From contig CATKWX010000007.1 of NCBI GenBank assembly GCA_949840345.1, positions 1 to 64,000 of the forward strand: a stretch of 64,000 bases of DNA, written 5' to 3'. The notes below the pieces were generated by a model. The model ran no database searches. It saw nothing but the letters and a program-made list of their open reading frames with translations, and had not been told where the DNA came from. Position 1 is the first letter of the stretch. Each line of letters starts with the position of its first letter. Positions 5,687 through 13,804 of this stretch are shown here, in pieces. This stretch comes from an uncultured Eubacteriales bacterium (GTDB lineage: Bacteria; Bacillota; Clostridia; TANB77; CAG-508). The position numbers were made by a program, and so were the translations under genes.

Positions 5687-7813
5687 ATGAAGGTAATAAA
5701 AAGAGATGGAAGGGCCGTAGAATTTAATTCTGAAAAAATTAAAATAGCTATTGAAAAGGCAAATAAGGAAGTAAGACCAAGTTTAAGAGCAACAGAAGAA
5801 GAAATCAATAATATAATAAAATACGTAGAAGAAATGGACAAGAAGAGAATACTAGTTGAAGATATTCAAGATATAATTGAAGAAAAATTAATGGAAATAA
5901 ACAAATATGATTTAGCAAAAAAATATATTGTATATAGATATACAAGAGCCTTAGTAAGAAAACAAAATACAACAGATGAGTCAATACTAGGCTTAATTAA
6001 AAATCAAAATAAAGAATTATTAGAAGAAAACTCAAATAAAAATGCAGTATTAGCTTCAACACAAAGAGATTATATTGCAGGAGAAGTTTCTAAAGATTTA
6101 ACTAAAAGAATTTTATTACCAGAAAAAATTACAAAAGCACATGAAGAAGGAGTACTTCATTTCCACGATATGGACTACTTTTTACAACCAATATTTAATT
6201 GCTGTTTAATAAATATTGGAGATATGCTAGATAATGGAACTGTTATGAATGGAAAATTAATAGAACCTCCAAAAAGTTTCCAAGTTGCTTGTACTATTAC
6301 AACACAAATTATAGCAGCAGTAGCATCAAATCAATATGGTGGACAATCAGTTGATATAAGACATTTAGGTAAATATGTAAGAAAAAGCTATGACAAATTT
6401 AAAAAAGAATTAGAAGAAGAGTTTTCAGATAAATTATCAGCAGATATGATAGAAGAAATAGCACAACAAAGATTAAAGAAAGAGATTTCAGCAGGTGTGC
6501 AAACAATTCAATATCAAATAAATACATTAATGACAACAAATGGACAATCTCCTTTTGTAACATTATTCTTAAACCTAGATAAAGATGATGAATATATTGA
6601 AGAAAATGCTATGATTATAGAAGAAGTTTTAAAACAAAGATACAAAGGAATAAAGAATGAAAAAGGTGTATATGTAACACCAGCATTCCCAAAATTAATA
6701 TATGTTTTAGATGAACATAACTGCCTAAAAGGTGGAAAATATGACTACTTAACAAAACTTGCTGTAAAATGTTCTTCAAAAAGGTTATATCCAGACTATA
6801 TTTCTGCTAAAAAAATGCGTGAAAATTACGAAGGTAATGTATTTAGCCCAATGGGTTGCAGAAGCTTCTTATCTCCTTGGAAGGATGAGAACGGAAACTA
6901 CAAATTTGAGGGAAGATTTAATCAAGGTGTTGTAAGTATTAATTTACCACAAATAGGAATTGTAGCAGGTGGAGATGAAGATAAATTCTGGAATTTATTA
7001 GATGAAAGATTAGACTTATGCTTCGAAGCATTAATGTGTAGACACTATGCTTTACTTGGAACATTAACTAATACAAGCCCAATTCACTGGAGATATGGAG
7101 CAATTGCTCGTATGAAATCTGGAGAAAAGATAGACGAATTGTTAAAGGGTGGATATTCAACAATATCTTTAGGATACATTGGTATATATGAATTAACTAA
7201 ATTAATGAAAGGTGTATCTCATACAACAAAAGAAGGACATGATTTTGCAATAAAAGTTATGAAATATTTAAAAGATACTACAAAAAGATGGAAAGAAGAA
7301 ACTGGTTTAGGATTTGCATTATATGGAACACCAGCAGAATCTCTATGTTATAGATTTGCAAGAATTGATAAAGAAAAGTTTGGAGATATAAAGGATGTTA
7401 CAGATAAAGGATATTACACAAACTCATACCATGTAGATGTAAGGGAAGAAATAGATGCTTTCGAAAAATTACAATTCGAAAGTGAATTCCAAACAGTTTC
7501 ACCAGGTGGAGCAATATCATACGTTGAAATACCAAATATGAGACACAATTTAGAGGCATTAGAAGAATTAGTTAAATTTATATATGATAATATACAATAT
7601 GCAGAATTCAACACAAAATCAGATTATTGTCACGTATGTGGTTTTGATGGAGAAATTATAATAAATGATAAACTAGAATGGGAATGTCCAAACTGTGGAA
7701 ACAAAGATAAAAATAAGATGAATGTAACAAGACGTACTTGTGGATATTTAGGAGAAAACTTCTGGAACGAAGGAAAGACAAAGGAAATAAAGTCTAGAGT
7801 ATTACATTTGTAG
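5687..7813 (+). CDS. nrdD: Anaerobic (class III) ribonucleoside-triphosphate reductase
   Basis: Reduces ribonucleotides to deoxyribonucleotides without oxygen using a glycyl radical. The ATG at 5687 follows AGAGGGGG and gives MKVIKRDGRAVEFNSEKI, the start of an ATP-cone allosteric domain (about residues 1-90). The product is 708 residues, normal for NrdD. The C-terminus has two zinc-binding CxxC pairs (CHVCG about residue 648, then CPNCG) and the glycyl-radical box RRTCGYLGENFWNEG with the likely radical Gly near residue 686. The activase gene follows after 11 bases. Regulation by the divergent Crp/Fnr protein is suggested by the shared palindrome. Confidence 0.95.
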   Translation: MKVIKRDGRAVEFNSEKIKIAIEKANKEVRPSLRATEEEINNIIKYVEEMDKKRILVEDIQDIIEEKLMEINKYDLAKKYIVYRYTRALVRKQNTTDESILGLIKNQNKELLEENSNKNAVLASTQRDYIAGEVSKDLTKRILLPEKITKAHEEGVLHFHDMDYFLQPIFNCCLINIGDMLDNGTVMNGKLIEPPKSFQVACTITTQIIAAVASNQYGGQSVDIRHLGKYVRKSYDKFKKELEEEFSDKLSADMIEEIAQQRLKKEISAGVQTIQYQINTLMTTNGQSPFVTLFLNLDKDDEYIEENAMIIEEVLKQRYKGIKNEKGVYVTPAFPKLIYVLDEHNCLKGGKYDYLTKLAVKCSSKRLYPDYISAKKMRENYEGNVFSPMGCRSFLSPWKDENGNYKFEGRFNQGVVSINLPQIGIVAGGDEDKFWNLLDERLDLCFEALMCRHYALLGTLTNTSPIHWRYGAIARMKSGEKIDELLKGGYSTISLGYIGIYELTKLMKGVSHTTKEGHDFAIKVMKYLKDTTKRWKEETGLGFALYGTPAESLCYRFARIDKEKFGDIKDVTDKGYYTNSYHVDVREEIDAFEKLQFESEFQTVSPGGAISYVEIPNMRHNLEALEELVKFIYDNIQYAEFNTKSDYCHVCGFDGEIIINDKLEWECPNCGNKDKNKMNVTRRTCGYLGENFWNEGKTKEIKSRVLHL

Positions 7814-7824
7814 GAGGAATCATA

Positions 7825-8349
7825 ATGAATTATGCAAAAATCAAAAAATGTGATGTAGCAAATGGACCGGGTGTTAGGGTTTCACTATTTGTTAGTGGAT
7901 GTACACACCACTGTAAAAATTGTTTTAATAAAGAGGCTTGGGATTTTAATTATGGAAATTGTTTTAATGAACAAGCAGAGTGTGAAGTATTAGAAGCGTT
8001 AAAGCCAGATTATATTCAAGGGTTATCTCTTTTAGGTGGAGAGCCTATGGAAAAAGCTAACCAAGAAGGATTACTTCCACTAGTAAAAAAAGTTAAAGAA
8101 ACATATCCAAATAAATCTATATGGTGCTATTCAGGTTACACTTTTGATGACCAAATATTAACAGGAAAAGCAAACGACAACGAAGTTACCAAGGAATTGT
8201 TAGAGAATATAGACTATATAGTAGATGGGGAATTTGTAGACGAATTAAAAAATCCTAGTTTAAAATTTAGAGGTTCATCAAATCAAAGAATAATAGATGT
8301 ACAAAATAGTTTAAAAAGTGGAACAGTAACACTATGGGAAAATGAATAA
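7825..8349 (+). CDS. nrdG: Anaerobic ribonucleotide reductase activating protein (radical SAM)
   Basis: A 174-residue radical-SAM activase that makes the glycyl radical on NrdD. The cluster-binding motif is CTHHCKNC (CxxxCxxC, about residues 26-33), preceded by GPGVRVSLFVSG; the SAM-binding LLGGEP follows. It has AGGAGG before its ATG and lies 11 bases after nrdD, so they form one operon, closed by the terminator after it. Confidence 0.95.
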   Translation: MNYAKIKKCDVANGPGVRVSLFVSGCTHHCKNCFNKEAWDFNYGNCFNEQAECEVLEALKPDYIQGLSLLGGEPMEKANQEGLLPLVKKVKETYPNKSIWCYSGYTFDDQILTGKANDNEVTKELLENIDYIVDGEFVDELKNPSLKFRGSSNQRIIDVQNSLKSGTVTLWENE

Positions 8350-8367
8350 ATAAATTATAATTATATG

Positions 8368-8395
8368 TGGCGTGGAATATTTCACGCCATTTTTT
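8368..8395 (+). terminator. nrdDG terminator
   Basis: GGCGTG pairs with CACGCC over an 8-base loop, followed by ATTTTTT: a typical Rho-independent terminator after nrdG. Confidence 0.8.
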
Positions 8396-8486: not shown

Positions 8487-9455
8487 ATGAACACAGAATT
8501 ATATAAAGAAAGAATAATTAAAATTATAATGGATAGTAAATTTTTGCGAAATTTTGCTCAAAAAACGGATTATTTAAAACCTATAAATTGGATAGATCCA
8601 AAGGAAAACTGGCGAAATAAAGAAATATTGGAGAATCCAAATTCGAAGGATAAAGAACCATTAGTAGCTTTAAATTCATATAATGAAAAAACTAAAGAGC
8701 TTATACAACTTCATAAAAAAATATTTCCCGTTCCAGCATATTTTAATCAAAATATTAAAAGTGCAATGCCTATACTTTATTCAAGAGAAGGTGTAGTTGA
8801 TTATCTATTGAGAATAATAGATGAGTTGCCAGATGAATATGGAATAATCGTATATGATGGATATAGACCTGTTTCAGTTCAACAATCTCTGTTTGATACA
8901 ATATACGAACTACAAAAAAGCAAACCAGAAAATAAAAATTGTACACATGAGGAATTAGAGAAACTGACAAATGAATTCGCCTCTACTCCGTCTTTAGATC
9001 CCAAAAAGCCATCAACACATACTACTGGTGGGGCAATAGATTTTTCTATTTGCGATTTAGACGGAAAAGAACTAAACTTTGGTTGTGATTTTGATGATTT
9101 TCATCATATTTCTAATGTAACATACTTTGAAGAAAAGTATAAAAATGGAGAAAATTTAACAGACGCTGAATTAGAAGCAATGCTTAATAGGAGAGTATTG
9201 TCAAATATAGGTTCTAAAGTAGGATTTTCTTTAAATGAGTTTGAATGGTGGCATATGGATATATATAATCAATGGGATGATGGTATGGCTACTGCTATGT
9301 ATGATAGTTGCGAGATAAATGGAGTTATTCCAAATCCTAATAATACTATAGCTAAATATATACAAATGAACAAGAATTTACAAAATCATTTTAAATATTT
9401 AACTCCACAAGCATTAGAACTATTAAAGGATGAAAATGATATTGAAATAAATTAA
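8487..9455 (+). CDS. VanX-type D-Ala-D-Ala dipeptidase (peptidase M15D)
   Basis: A zinc dipeptidase that removes free D-Ala-D-Ala so that modified precursors enter the cell wall. The ATG at 8487 follows AAAAAAGGAAAA; the product is 322 residues, longer than VanX (about 200) because of a roughly 100-residue N-terminal extension. M15D signatures are present: YDGYRPVSVQQ (about residues 122-132), STHTTGGAID (residues 176-185, His and Asp zinc ligands), and EFEWWHMD with the catalytic Glu and zinc His (about 251-258). No signal peptide, so cytoplasmic. It is directly followed by a VanG-like ligase, which points to a glycopeptide-resistance-type set rather than a nutritional dipeptidase. Confidence 0.85.
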   Translation: MNTELYKERIIKIIMDSKFLRNFAQKTDYLKPINWIDPKENWRNKEILENPNSKDKEPLVALNSYNEKTKELIQLHKKIFPVPAYFNQNIKSAMPILYSREGVVDYLLRIIDELPDEYGIIVYDGYRPVSVQQSLFDTIYELQKSKPENKNCTHEELEKLTNEFASTPSLDPKKPSTHTTGGAIDFSICDLDGKELNFGCDFDDFHHISNVTYFEEKYKNGENLTDAELEAMLNRRVLSNIGSKVGFSLNEFEWWHMDIYNQWDDGMATAMYDSCEINGVIPNPNNTIAKYIQMNKNLQNHFKYLTPQALELLKDENDIEIN

Positions 9456-9502
9456 CATTAATAAATATATAATTAGAAAATAAAATTCAAGGAGGATAAA
9501 TT

Positions 9503-10540
9503 ATGGAAAAGAAAAAAATTGGAGTAATATTTGGAGGATGTAGTCCAGAACATGATGTTTCTTTAGAATCTTCATACAGTGTTATAAAAAATATGAATAA
9601 AGAAAAATATGACTGTATATTAATTGGAATTACAAAAAATGGTGATTGGTTTAAGTTTGATGGAGATATAGAAGATATAAAAAATAATACTTGGGAAGAA
9701 AAAGGAAAATGCACAAAAGTAGTAATTTCTACAAATGTTTCTGATAAAGGCTTAATAGATTTAGAAAATAATACATTAATAAAACTAGATGCAATTTTTC
9801 CTGTATTGCACGGAAAAAATGGGGAAGATGGAACAGTTCAAGGCCTAGTTGAATTATCTGGTATACCATTAGTTGGATGCGGCGTTCTTTCATCTAGCCT
9901 ATGTATGGACAAGTATGTATCACATAAATTAGTAGAAAGTTATGGAATTAAAGTTGCAAAAAGTATTGTAATAGGTAATAAAACTGAAGCAAGTGAATTA
10001 AGCAATAAACTAAAAGAATTAACATATCCAGTATTTGTAAAGCCAATGAGAGCAGGTTCTTCAATTGGAATTACAAAAATCGAAAATGAAAATAACATAA
10101 AAATGGCAATTGAAGAAGCTTTTAAATATGATACAGAAATTATAATAGAAGAAAATGTTGAAGGTATAGAAATTGGATGTGCTGTTCTTGGAAACGACGA
10201 ATTAACAGTCGGAGAGGTTGACGAAATCGAATTAAGTAGTGGCTTTTTCGATTATACAGAAAAATATACTTTAAAAACCTCAAAAATCTATGTACCTGCA
10301 AGAATAAGTAAAGAAATCTCAGACAAAGCTAAAGAAACTGCAAAACAAATATATAAAATCTTAAAATGTAAAGATTTTGCAAGAGTAGATTTATTTTTAA
10401 CACCACAAGGAGAAATTTATTTTAATGAAATTAACACAATACCTGGCTTTACTAGTCACAGTAGATATCCAAGTATGATGAAGGAGATTGGCATAAGTTT
10501 CGACCAATTAGTAGATAAGCTAATTAGTTTTAATATATAA
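9503..10540 (+). CDS. vanG: D-alanine--D-serine (VanG-like) ligase
   Basis: ATP-grasp ligase, 345 residues, that joins D-Ala to a second D-amino acid for peptidoglycan precursors. N-terminus GVIFGGCSPEHDVSLESSYSV and C-terminus FNEINTIPGFTSHSRYP are typical of the Ddl/Van family. The omega-loop region reads ELSSGFFDYTEKYTLKTSKI (about residues 243-262). The EKY motif and surrounding residues are those I know from VanG/VanC-type D-Ala-D-Ser ligases. The neighbours are a VanX-type dipeptidase upstream and a split VanT-like racemase downstream. It could still act as a housekeeping D-Ala-D-Ala ligase; the context favours D-Ser. Confidence 0.82.
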   Translation: MEKKKIGVIFGGCSPEHDVSLESSYSVIKNMNKEKYDCILIGITKNGDWFKFDGDIEDIKNNTWEEKGKCTKVVISTNVSDKGLIDLENNTLIKLDAIFPVLHGKNGEDGTVQGLVELSGIPLVGCGVLSSSLCMDKYVSHKLVESYGIKVAKSIVIGNKTEASELSNKLKELTYPVFVKPMRAGSSIGITKIENENNIKMAIEEAFKYDTEIIIEENVEGIEIGCAVLGNDELTVGEVDEIELSSGFFDYTEKYTLKTSKIYVPARISKEISDKAKETAKQIYKILKCKDFARVDLFLTPQGEIYFNEINTIPGFTSHSRYPSMMKEIGISFDQLVDKLISFNI

Positions 10541-10587
10541 GAATAACATTAATTAGTTTTCTATAATGTGCAATAGATGTTAATGGA

Positions 10588-10724
10588 GACAATATAATAA
10601 TATTTTTTGCGAGTTCGACCCTGAGTCGTTTTGTCTTTAACTCAAGTAGAGTGTGTTACTAAAAGATGTTTTGCCGTATCTAAAACGCCTTGGAGAACGG
10701 AACGAAAAATATTATTATATTGTC
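10588..10724. repeat. MITE-like element with 20-bp perfect terminal inverted repeats
   Basis: The outer 20 bases (10588-10607) are exactly the reverse complement of 10705-10724. The roughly 100-base interior is clearly richer in GC than its surroundings and has no plausible ORF. It sits between the VanG-like ligase and the acyltransferase gene. It could also fold as one long RNA hairpin. Confidence 0.65.
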
Positions 10725-10761
10725 GTAATTAGCATTATATAAATATTTTAAGGAGAAACAA

Positions 10762-11757
10762 ATGAAAAAACAAATAACATTAGATAAATTTAAAATCATA
10801 TGTTCCATTCTTATTATTGCCATACATACATATCCTTTTTTAGCTATAAATGAGAATTTAGATTTTATATTCACGCATATATTCTGTAGAATAGGTGTGC
10901 CGTTTTTCTTAATGGTAACAGGATTCTTTGTATTGCCAAAAGCATTAGAAAATAGGGAAAGTCTGATAAAATATACAATTAAAATTATTAAAATATACGC
11001 AATATGTATTTTGCTATATTTACCAATAAATATCTATGCAGGCAAATTCAGTGGAATTGGAGTTACAGGGTTACTTAAAGAAATATTCATAAATGGCACG
11101 TTTTATCACTTATGGTATTTCCCAGCATTAATATTAGGAATATGGATTACATACTTCTTAATAAAACATCTAAAAGTAAATAAAGCAATATTTGTTTGCG
11201 CAATATTATATATAATTGGATTATTTGGAGATAGCTATTATGGAATTGCACAAAAATCAGATATATTAAGAAACATTTACAATATAATATTTAATATATT
11301 CGATTATACAAGAAATGGGTTATTTTATGTACCAATATTTCTAATATTGGGCTATATTATGAAGCAACTAAAACTTAACTTAAGTAAAAGTACTAATATA
11401 GTTCTTATTGTTATATCACTAATTTTAATGATATGTGAAGGCTTTGTATTACATCACTTCAATTTGCAAAAGTGGGATAGTATGTATATTATGCTAATTC
11501 CAACTATGATACTTATATTTAATTTAATAATGCAAAATAATAATGAGAATAATAAGAAATTAAGAAATATATCAACAGTAATTTATATAGTACATCCTAT
11601 TTTTATTATTGTTGTAAGAGGAATAGCCAAAGTGTTAAAACTTCAAGAAATAATGATAAATAATAGTGTGATCCATTATTTATTAGTGGTTATACTAACA
11701 GTGTTGTTTAGTATAGTTTTTGAAATTATAAAAGAGAAGGGAAGTTTTAAAAAATAA
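10762..11757 (+). CDS. Acyltransferase-3 family membrane protein resembling the VanT N-terminal domain
   Basis: A 331-residue protein with about ten hydrophobic segments, starting at an ATG after AAGGAG. The opening LDKFKIICSILIIAIHTYPF followed by FCRIGVPFFLMVTGFFVLP is the acyltransferase-3 signature. In VanT of VanC/VanG-type enterococci this domain is fused to the serine racemase and is thought to help deliver L-Ser. Here the racemase is a separate gene 64 bases downstream, so the two parts of VanT seem split. Acyltransfer activity itself cannot be judged from sequence. A perfect 17-bp hairpin overlaps its stop. Confidence 0.78.
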   Translation: MKKQITLDKFKIICSILIIAIHTYPFLAINENLDFIFTHIFCRIGVPFFLMVTGFFVLPKALENRESLIKYTIKIIKIYAICILLYLPINIYAGKFSGIGVTGLLKEIFINGTFYHLWYFPALILGIWITYFLIKHLKVNKAIFVCAILYIIGLFGDSYYGIAQKSDILRNIYNIIFNIFDYTRNGLFYVPIFLILGYIMKQLKLNLSKSTNIVLIVISLILMICEGFVLHHFNLQKWDSMYIMLIPTMILIFNLIMQNNNENNKKLRNISTVIYIVHPIFIIVVRGIAKVLKLQEIMINNSVIHYLLVVILTVLFSIVFEIIKEKGSFKK

Positions 11758-11789
11758 TCAGCATATTGCTATATTATTTTTTAAAACTT
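11742..11789 (+). terminator. Hairpin with 17-bp perfect arms overlapping the acyltransferase stop
   Basis: Bases 11742-11758 are the exact reverse complement of 11773-11789, with a 14-base loop and an internal T-run. It may act as a terminator or processing hairpin between the two VanT halves. Confidence 0.6.
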
Positions 11790-11821
11790 GGTTTGTGCTT
11801 TAGAAAGGAAAGATAATAAAA

Positions 11822-12961
11822 ATGGAAAATGAAGAAAGCATAAAAAAAGATAGAGCTTGGATAGAAATTAACTTAAGTAATTTAGAAAATAACGTTAATG
11901 AAATTAAAAAAGTAATATCAGATGAGTGCAAAATAATGGCAATTGTGAAAGCAAATGGATATGGACACGGAATGATAAATATATCAAAGAAATTAAACGA
12001 TATAGGAATTGAAAATTTTGCAGTAGCAACTTTAGAAGAAGGTATAGCTTTAAGAAAAAACAATATTAAAGGTAACATACTAATACTAGGTTATACAGAT
12101 TTTAATGATTTAGAATATGTAATAAAATATGATTTAATTCAAACTATAGTAGATTATCAATATGCAAGCACAATAAATGAATTGAATTTAAGCAGTAAAT
12201 TAAAAGTTCATATTAAAATAAATACAGGTATGAACAGAATAGGTGAAAGCTGTAAAAACGTAGATAATATAGCTAAAATATATGAAATGAACAATATAGA
12301 AGTACTTGGAGTTTATAGTCATTTATGTGTTGCAGATAGCAGTAAAAATGATGATTTAGAATTTACGGATAAACAAATTAATAACTTTTATGAATGTATA
12401 GATACAATAAAAGCTTTAGGGTATAATGTTGGAAAAATCCATTTACAATCTAGTTATTGTATATTAAACTATTCAAACCTAAAATGCGATTATGTTCGCC
12501 CCGGAATAATTATGTATGGCTTATATAGCGATAAATATAGTAAAACAAAAATACAACCTAATATAAAGCCAGTATTATCACTAAAAGCTAGAATAACTAG
12601 TGTAAAGCAAATTAATACTGGAGAATCTGTAGGGTATGGTAGAACATTTATATCTGATACAAATAGAAAAATTGCATCAGTTGCAATTGGATATGCAGAT
12701 GGATATCCTAGAAGTTTATCTGGAAAGCATACGAAAGTTTTAGTAAATAATGAGTACGCAGAAATAGTAGGTAGAATATGTATGGACCAATTAATGATAG
12801 ATGTAACAAACATTTCTAATGTAAAACAAGGAGACATAGTTACATTAATAGGAGAAGAAAAGGAAATTTCTGCCGAAGAACTTTCTGATAAATCAGATAC
12901 AATTACAAATGAATTATTATGCAGATTAGGCAATAGATTACCAAGAATTGAGATAAATTAA
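11822..12961 (+). CDS. PLP-dependent alanine/serine racemase (VanT C-terminal-like)
   Basis: A 379-residue fold-type III racemase. The PLP lysine is in IMAIVKANGYGHG (Lys about residue 43), and substrate/PLP regions include AIGYADGYPRSLS and VGRICMDQLMIDV. In classical alanine racemases the late motif reads INYE or IPYE, with a tyrosine that closes the alanine pocket. Here it reads TITNELLCRLGNRLPR with Asn at about residue 363, the residue I recall for VanT serine racemases. Following a VanX-VanG-acyltransferase set, D-serine production is the likely role. It could also be the cell's only alanine racemase. Assays would settle the substrate. Confidence 0.82.
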   Translation: MENEESIKKDRAWIEINLSNLENNVNEIKKVISDECKIMAIVKANGYGHGMINISKKLNDIGIENFAVATLEEGIALRKNNIKGNILILGYTDFNDLEYVIKYDLIQTIVDYQYASTINELNLSSKLKVHIKINTGMNRIGESCKNVDNIAKIYEMNNIEVLGVYSHLCVADSSKNDDLEFTDKQINNFYECIDTIKALGYNVGKIHLQSSYCILNYSNLKCDYVRPGIIMYGLYSDKYSKTKIQPNIKPVLSLKARITSVKQINTGESVGYGRTFISDTNRKIASVAIGYADGYPRSLSGKHTKVLVNNEYAEIVGRICMDQLMIDVTNISNVKQGDIVTLIGEEKEISAEELSDKSDTITNELLCRLGNRLPRIEIN

Positions 12962-13078: not shown

Positions 13079-13804
13079 ATGTCAGGACATAGCAAATGGC
13101 ATAATATTGCAGCGAAAAAAGGAAAGGCAGATGCTGCAAGAGGAAAAATATTTACAAAATTAGGTAGAGAATTACTTATGGCAGTAAAACAAGGAGGACC
13201 AGACCCTGACAGTAATTCTAAATTAAGAGATGTAATTGCAAAATGTAAATCTAATAATATGCCTAATGATACAATAAATGGAGCTATAAAAAGAGCTGCA
13301 GGTGCAGGTAATAGTGAAAATTATGAAGAAATTGTATATGAAGGATACGGACCTAATGGAATAGCAGTTATAGTAAATGCTTCAACAGATAATAGAAATA
13401 GAACTGCAGCAGATGTTAGACACGTTTTCGATAAATTCGGTGGAAACCTTGGTACATCTGGATGCGTATCATATATGTTTGAGAAAAAGGGTGTAATTGT
13501 AATAGAAAAAGCATCAACAAATCTTTCAGAAGACGATTTAATGTTACTAGCAATAGATGCAGGCGCAGAGAATTTTGAAAGTTCTGAAGAAGTTTATGAA
13601 ATTACAACATCACCAGATGACTTTTCTAAAGTAAGAGAAGAGTTAGAGAAAAATAATATATCATTCTTAGAAGCAGATGTTCAAATGGTTCCAAATATGT
13701 ACAATACATTAGATGAAGACGGAGCAAGAAAAATGGGATTATTATTAGAACACTTAGACGAATTAGATGATGTTATTGAAGTATATCATAACTGGGATGA
13801 ATAA
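13079..13804 (+). CDS. yebC: YebC/PmpR family protein (TACO1-like)
   Basis: A 241-residue soluble protein starting [20 protein letters not shown], the invariant YebC opening, and containing IYEGYGP-type, [11 protein letters not shown] and [15 protein letters not shown] motifs. Family members were annotated as transcriptional regulators; recent work assigns several a role in translation of proline-rich stretches, like mitochondrial TACO1. Full length and intact. A hairpin lies directly against its ribosome binding site, and a GC-rich repeat follows the stop. Confidence 0.92.

Follow-up and report, generated by a model that had tools for sequence, protein, structure and literature searches.

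Among the known systems closest to the locus reported here are the vanG operon of Enterococcus faecalis BM4518, the vanG-like cluster of Clostridioides difficile and the vanL cluster of E. faecalis N06-0364. In VanL of E. faecalis, the membrane and racemase parts of VanT are encoded by separate genes, vanTmL and vanTrL (PMC9404765; also PMC11597547), and NCBIfam includes models for both parts. The role of the acyltransferase-3 (AT3) half of VanT is an open question (PMC9558356; PMC12423673), and it is in this half that mutations of vanT associated with high vancomycin resistance reportedly lie (PMC12423673). As for the racemase, an account cited in PMC6182600 reports both serine and alanine racemase activities for VanT of E. 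gallinarum (Arias 2000).

The 64 000-nt stretch analysed here (the window) covers positions 1–64000 of a contig from the 1.84-Mb draft genome (50 contigs, 99.5% complete) of an uncultured Eubacteriales bacterium. Between nrdG (7825–8349, plus strand, TIGR02491) and yebC (13079–13804, plus strand, NF001030) lie four van-cluster genes in a row (8487–12961), all on the plus strand and encoding an M15D dipeptidase, a VanG-type ligase, a membrane protein (VanTm) and a racemase (VanTr). Our best explanation, to which we assign a probability of roughly 0.6, is that this is a VanG-type D-Ala-D-Ser cluster occupying a slot that in a sister species holds a conventional alanine racemase gene (alr).

The gene set is a new variant of the known VanG system. 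Like the E. faecalis BM4518 operon and the C. difficile cluster, it has a VanG-type ligase, a VanT-G-type racemase with the signature Asn, and a homologous AT3 half. It differs from both in four ways: its VanT is divided between two genes; the window contains neither VanRS nor VanXY, so that this is not a complete vanG operon; the place of VanXY is taken by an M15D dipeptidase; and the genes lie in an alr slot. With the vanL cluster of N06-0364 it shares separate vanTm and vanTr genes (PMC9404765), but its ligase is of the VanG rather than the VanL type. The nearest relatives of its ligase and racemase are in racemase-only or split VanG loci of its own family (L052–L065), which often lack VanRS or VanXY too; none of these has the M15D gene, however, and some lack VanTm or carry VanRS.

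Ligase, dipeptidase and racemase

The ligase (345 aa, 9503–10540, plus strand) scores 549.6 bits against the NCBI curated model D_ala_D_ser_VanG (NF000091, cut-off 495) and 437.6 bits against the E. faecalis VanG structure 4fu0, while its 324.8 bits against the VanL ligase model fall well short of that model's cut-off of 750. A VanG-type omega loop had been suggested on inspection of the sequence, and alignment agrees: FDYTEKYTLK is identical in E. faecalis VanG (4fu0). Phylogenetically, the enzyme groups with van ligases and apart from housekeeping Ddl (support 100/100). Its clade, supported at 97/94, has 15 members and includes other uncultured Clostridia, among which are several VanG loci from the same family. 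D-Ser is its predicted acceptor substrate.

The dipeptidase (322 aa, 8487–9455, plus strand) is a zinc D,D-dipeptidase of the VanX fold, with 55.4 bits to PF01427. It had been called VanX-type from the sequence alone, which holds for the fold but not for the family, as it scores only 37.6 bits against VanX (cut-off 320). All five active-site residues of VanX/DdpX are nonetheless kept in the alignment (R127, H178, D185, E253 and H256). This enzyme probably does the job of VanX or VanXY. It is otherwise divergent, being 25–31% identical to the relatives aligned, with an N-terminal extension of ~90 residues relative to VanX/DdpX and no evident signal peptide. Neither the 292 genomes of the family and 391 of the class nor phages, plasmids and viral contigs yielded a close relative of this gene, and no M15D gene stands beside VanG in any of the other VanG loci read.

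The soluble racemase VanTr (379 aa, 11822–12961, plus strand) scores 539.5 bits against vanT-G-Cterm (NF033131), above the cut-off of 460, and conserves the catalytic residues K43 and Y272. The Asn of its TITNELLCRL motif (N363), pointed out earlier as replacing a classical Tyr, indeed aligns with the Asn of VanTG (4ecl); at this position most alanine racemases have Tyr. The Asn is present in all 70 of 70 VanT racemases sampled, whereas the corresponding site in nine alanine racemases was Tyr in eight and Gln in one. In the VanT literature this site is established as governing the use of Ser as opposed to Ala (Meziane-Cherif 2015, cited in PMC9558356). VanTr also clusters with VanT and separately from Alr (SH-aLRT 99) in a tree which, like that of the membrane half, was built with a quick method. 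Having Asn instead of Tyr and falling outside the Alr group, it is not a member of Alr, and an Asn-bearing Alr is ruled out in that none of the nine Alr sampled carries Asn. With the ligase apart from Ddl and the racemase apart from Alr, the VanG-like D-Ser cluster proposed by the sequence-only reading stands, borne out by the curated models for both enzymes, by the trees and by the residues.

The divided VanT and the hairpin element

VanTm (331 aa, 10762–11757, plus strand) is an AT3 membrane protein (96.7 bits to PF01757) that retains the AT3 (R/K)-x10-H motif as K11-x10-H22. It matches positions 4–329 of the vanT-CELN model with 271.7 bits and thus corresponds to the N-terminal half of VanT; the model's cut-off of 900 applies to the whole 697-position fused protein and not to this half alone. 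Against the curated vanT-L-mem model it reaches 203.5 bits, below the cut-off of 675.

The sequence-only reading contrasted the split with an enterococcal VanT made as one protein. This description is not general, given that VanL has two genes (PMC9404765), and the split is not unusual, as it recurs across Bacillota. Among 71 classifiable loci (including one duplicate record), 37 had a fused T gene and 20 a split one; the split group includes Brevibacillus, Amphibacillus, Mediterraneibacter and the window. The remaining 14 had a racemase only, although in a few of these the contig may end too early or the membrane half may have been missed. The three states are interleaved, the racemase tree requiring a minimum of 15 changes and the membrane-half tree a minimum of nine; hence neither of the two origins that had been put forward, an ancestral state or a fission, emerges, the trees showing neither a clean ancestral state nor a single fission. 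A sequencing frameshift is ruled out as the cause of the split, because relatives from independent assemblies have the identical boundary. The way in which split and racemase-only clusters are distributed offers a natural test of the function of the AT3 half.

At several loci (L040, L042, L044 and L045, and also L052, L053, L055 and L058) a VanG–VanT racemase pair occurs without VanTm. Such pairs are flanked 5' by a protein that resembles GH25 muramidases and has a hydrophobic stretch at its N terminus, and 3' by a long transporter-like protein.

Between vanG and vanTm lies a non-coding, dispersed hairpin (MITE-like) element (10577–10735, no strand assigned), recognized by its 31-nt inverted ends, its copies in the genome and its fold (z-score −4.84). 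Fourteen other places in this genome match it at E below 1e-15. The copies (L149–L157 and L174–L183 besides the one in the window) have a conserved core of ~93 nt inside inverted arms, which measure 23–30 bp in 10 of the 11 copies aligned. The arms differ in sequence from copy to copy, yet the two arms of any one copy remain complementary: on average, 24.4 arm positions pair when a copy keeps its own arms, as against 12.9 when arms are swapped between copies. No match to the element was found in Rfam.

The element could weaken expression downstream, and it bears on whether the cluster is a decaying or cryptic remnant that has lost its regulator, had its operon broken by a repeat and exchanged a conserved VanTm His for Trp. 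The position of the hairpin is consistent with such decay, and so is VanTm residue 238, a Trp where 97% of the VanTm proteins aligned have His. Yet all four reading frames are intact and the catalytic residues of racemase and dipeptidase are kept, and we regard a remnant as very improbable.

The alr slot and the supply of D-Ala

In the sister species (genome G096), nrdG is followed by short ORFs, a Zip transporter, a conventional alr and then yebC, whereas in the window it is the van cluster that lies between nrdG and yebC. The flanks are closely similar: the lepA, nrdD, nrdG and yebC proteins are 95–98% identical (97% for yebC), and nrdG DNA is 89.2% identical over 7813–8349. Homology at the DNA level ends at the nrdG stop codon and restarts at about the stop codon of the racemase. 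Taken with the shared flanks, these breakpoints place the van cluster where G096 has Zip and alr, with VanTr at the position of alr. The direction of the exchange is not proven, as the G096 alr is itself long-branched and the comparison within the genus covers four species. This alr, beside yebC (L136, 9383–10477), sits on a very long branch with its catalytic residues kept. Either the type or the location of the racemase gene varies among the four species.

VanTr is the only match to PF00842 in its genome. Housekeeping Ddl is kept, beside murF. A D-amino-acid transaminase as source of D-Ala is ruled out, the genome's only class-IV aminotransferase being IlvE. Within the family, VanG exceeds the cut-off in 11 of 292 genomes, and eight of these 11 (the genome studied here, G030, G057, G060, G097, G113, G227 and G128) have no PF00842 gene other than a VanT-type racemase, which in G128 lies on another contig; the other three have a second PF00842 gene. 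Non-VanT Alr is rarer in genomes with VanG (three of 11) than in the rest (178 of 281; Fisher p 0.024), a difference that is suggestive only, since five of the 11 belong to one genus.

From these identities and positions the following mechanism can be proposed. VanTr would convert L-Ser to D-Ser and, since no other Alr-family enzyme was found, would probably provide D-Ala too; VanTm would act with it at the membrane, whether as a serine importer or as an AT3 enzyme or partner. VanG would join D-Ala to D-Ser, while the M15D enzyme, in the role that VanX or VanXY has elsewhere, would hydrolyse the D-Ala-D-Ala produced by housekeeping Ddl. With expression probably constitutive, some of the peptidoglycan stems would always end in D-Ser, making low glycopeptide affinity a built-in trait. 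Against our explanation count the divergence of the M15D protein, the uncertain direction of the alr–van exchange, the family genomes without any PF00842 racemase, the effect that the hairpin element could have on expression, and the report, in the account cited in PMC11326576, that a C. difficile vanG cluster is functional without conferring resistance (Ammam 2013).

More broadly, we propose tentatively, and with less confidence than for the locus itself, that in several genera of the family the VanT-type racemase of a VanG cluster has displaced alanine racemase, supplying both D-Ala and D-Ser, and that a partly D-Ser-ended wall is constitutive there. If this is true, a resistance-type racemase has taken over an essential housekeeping step, and D-Ser wall chemistry has become fixed in a lineage instead of inducible.

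Alternatively, an ordinary VanG resistance cluster may have landed at this locus, with VanTr making D-Ser only and D-Ala coming by uptake or from an unrecognized enzyme. VanG is patchy in the family, as expected for mobile resistance genes, and 103 of the 292 family genomes, about one-third, contain no PF00842 racemase at all, although a Ddl-like ligase is present in most of the family. Uptake or an enzyme that escaped detection may therefore supply D-Ala, in which case VanTr would not have to. However, the racemase sits exactly in the alr slot, alanine racemase activity has been reported for VanT (Arias 2000, as cited in PMC6182600) and no VanS was kept, and this alternative seems to us unlikely, if the strongest of the rivals.

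Regulation

No homologues of VanR, VanS, VanXY or VanW were found in the 64-kb window, as the sequence-only reading had noted for vanRS. Genome-wide, no VanS-class kinase passes the cut-off of 400, the best scoring 130.8 bits, although VanS proteins of relatives, at 368–374, also fall just short of it. The earlier suggestion that the cluster is constitutive or serves normal cell-wall chemistry can accordingly be refined in both its parts. With no VanS over the cut-off, constitutive expression is favoured, and the cluster is probably expressed in this way. The second part, normal wall chemistry, gains support from the alr slot and from VanTr being the genome's only PF00842 racemase.

The cluster might also serve normal wall chemistry only, for example in a growth phase or sporulation, with glycopeptide resistance incidental or absent. 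The missing VanS is compatible with this, as is the cluster's place in a housekeeping setting, with nrdDG, yebC and a spoIIIAA-like gene nearby, and some VanG loci of relatives likewise have no VanRS nearby. Yet ligase, dipeptidase and racemase together are what a full D-Ala-D-Ser switch needs, and the nearest relatives include clusters with VanRS. A role confined to wall chemistry appears to us quite improbable, and we continue to prefer a VanG-type D-Ala-D-Ser cluster in the alr slot.

Upstream, a terminator-like hairpin 3' of nrdG (8367–8390, plus strand; a 10-bp stem followed by a T run) separates nrdDG from the van cluster, though it is weak evidence alone, since chance would produce one such site over the region that was scanned. 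Elsewhere in the genome, one copy of the dispersed hairpin element adjoins the housekeeping ddl.
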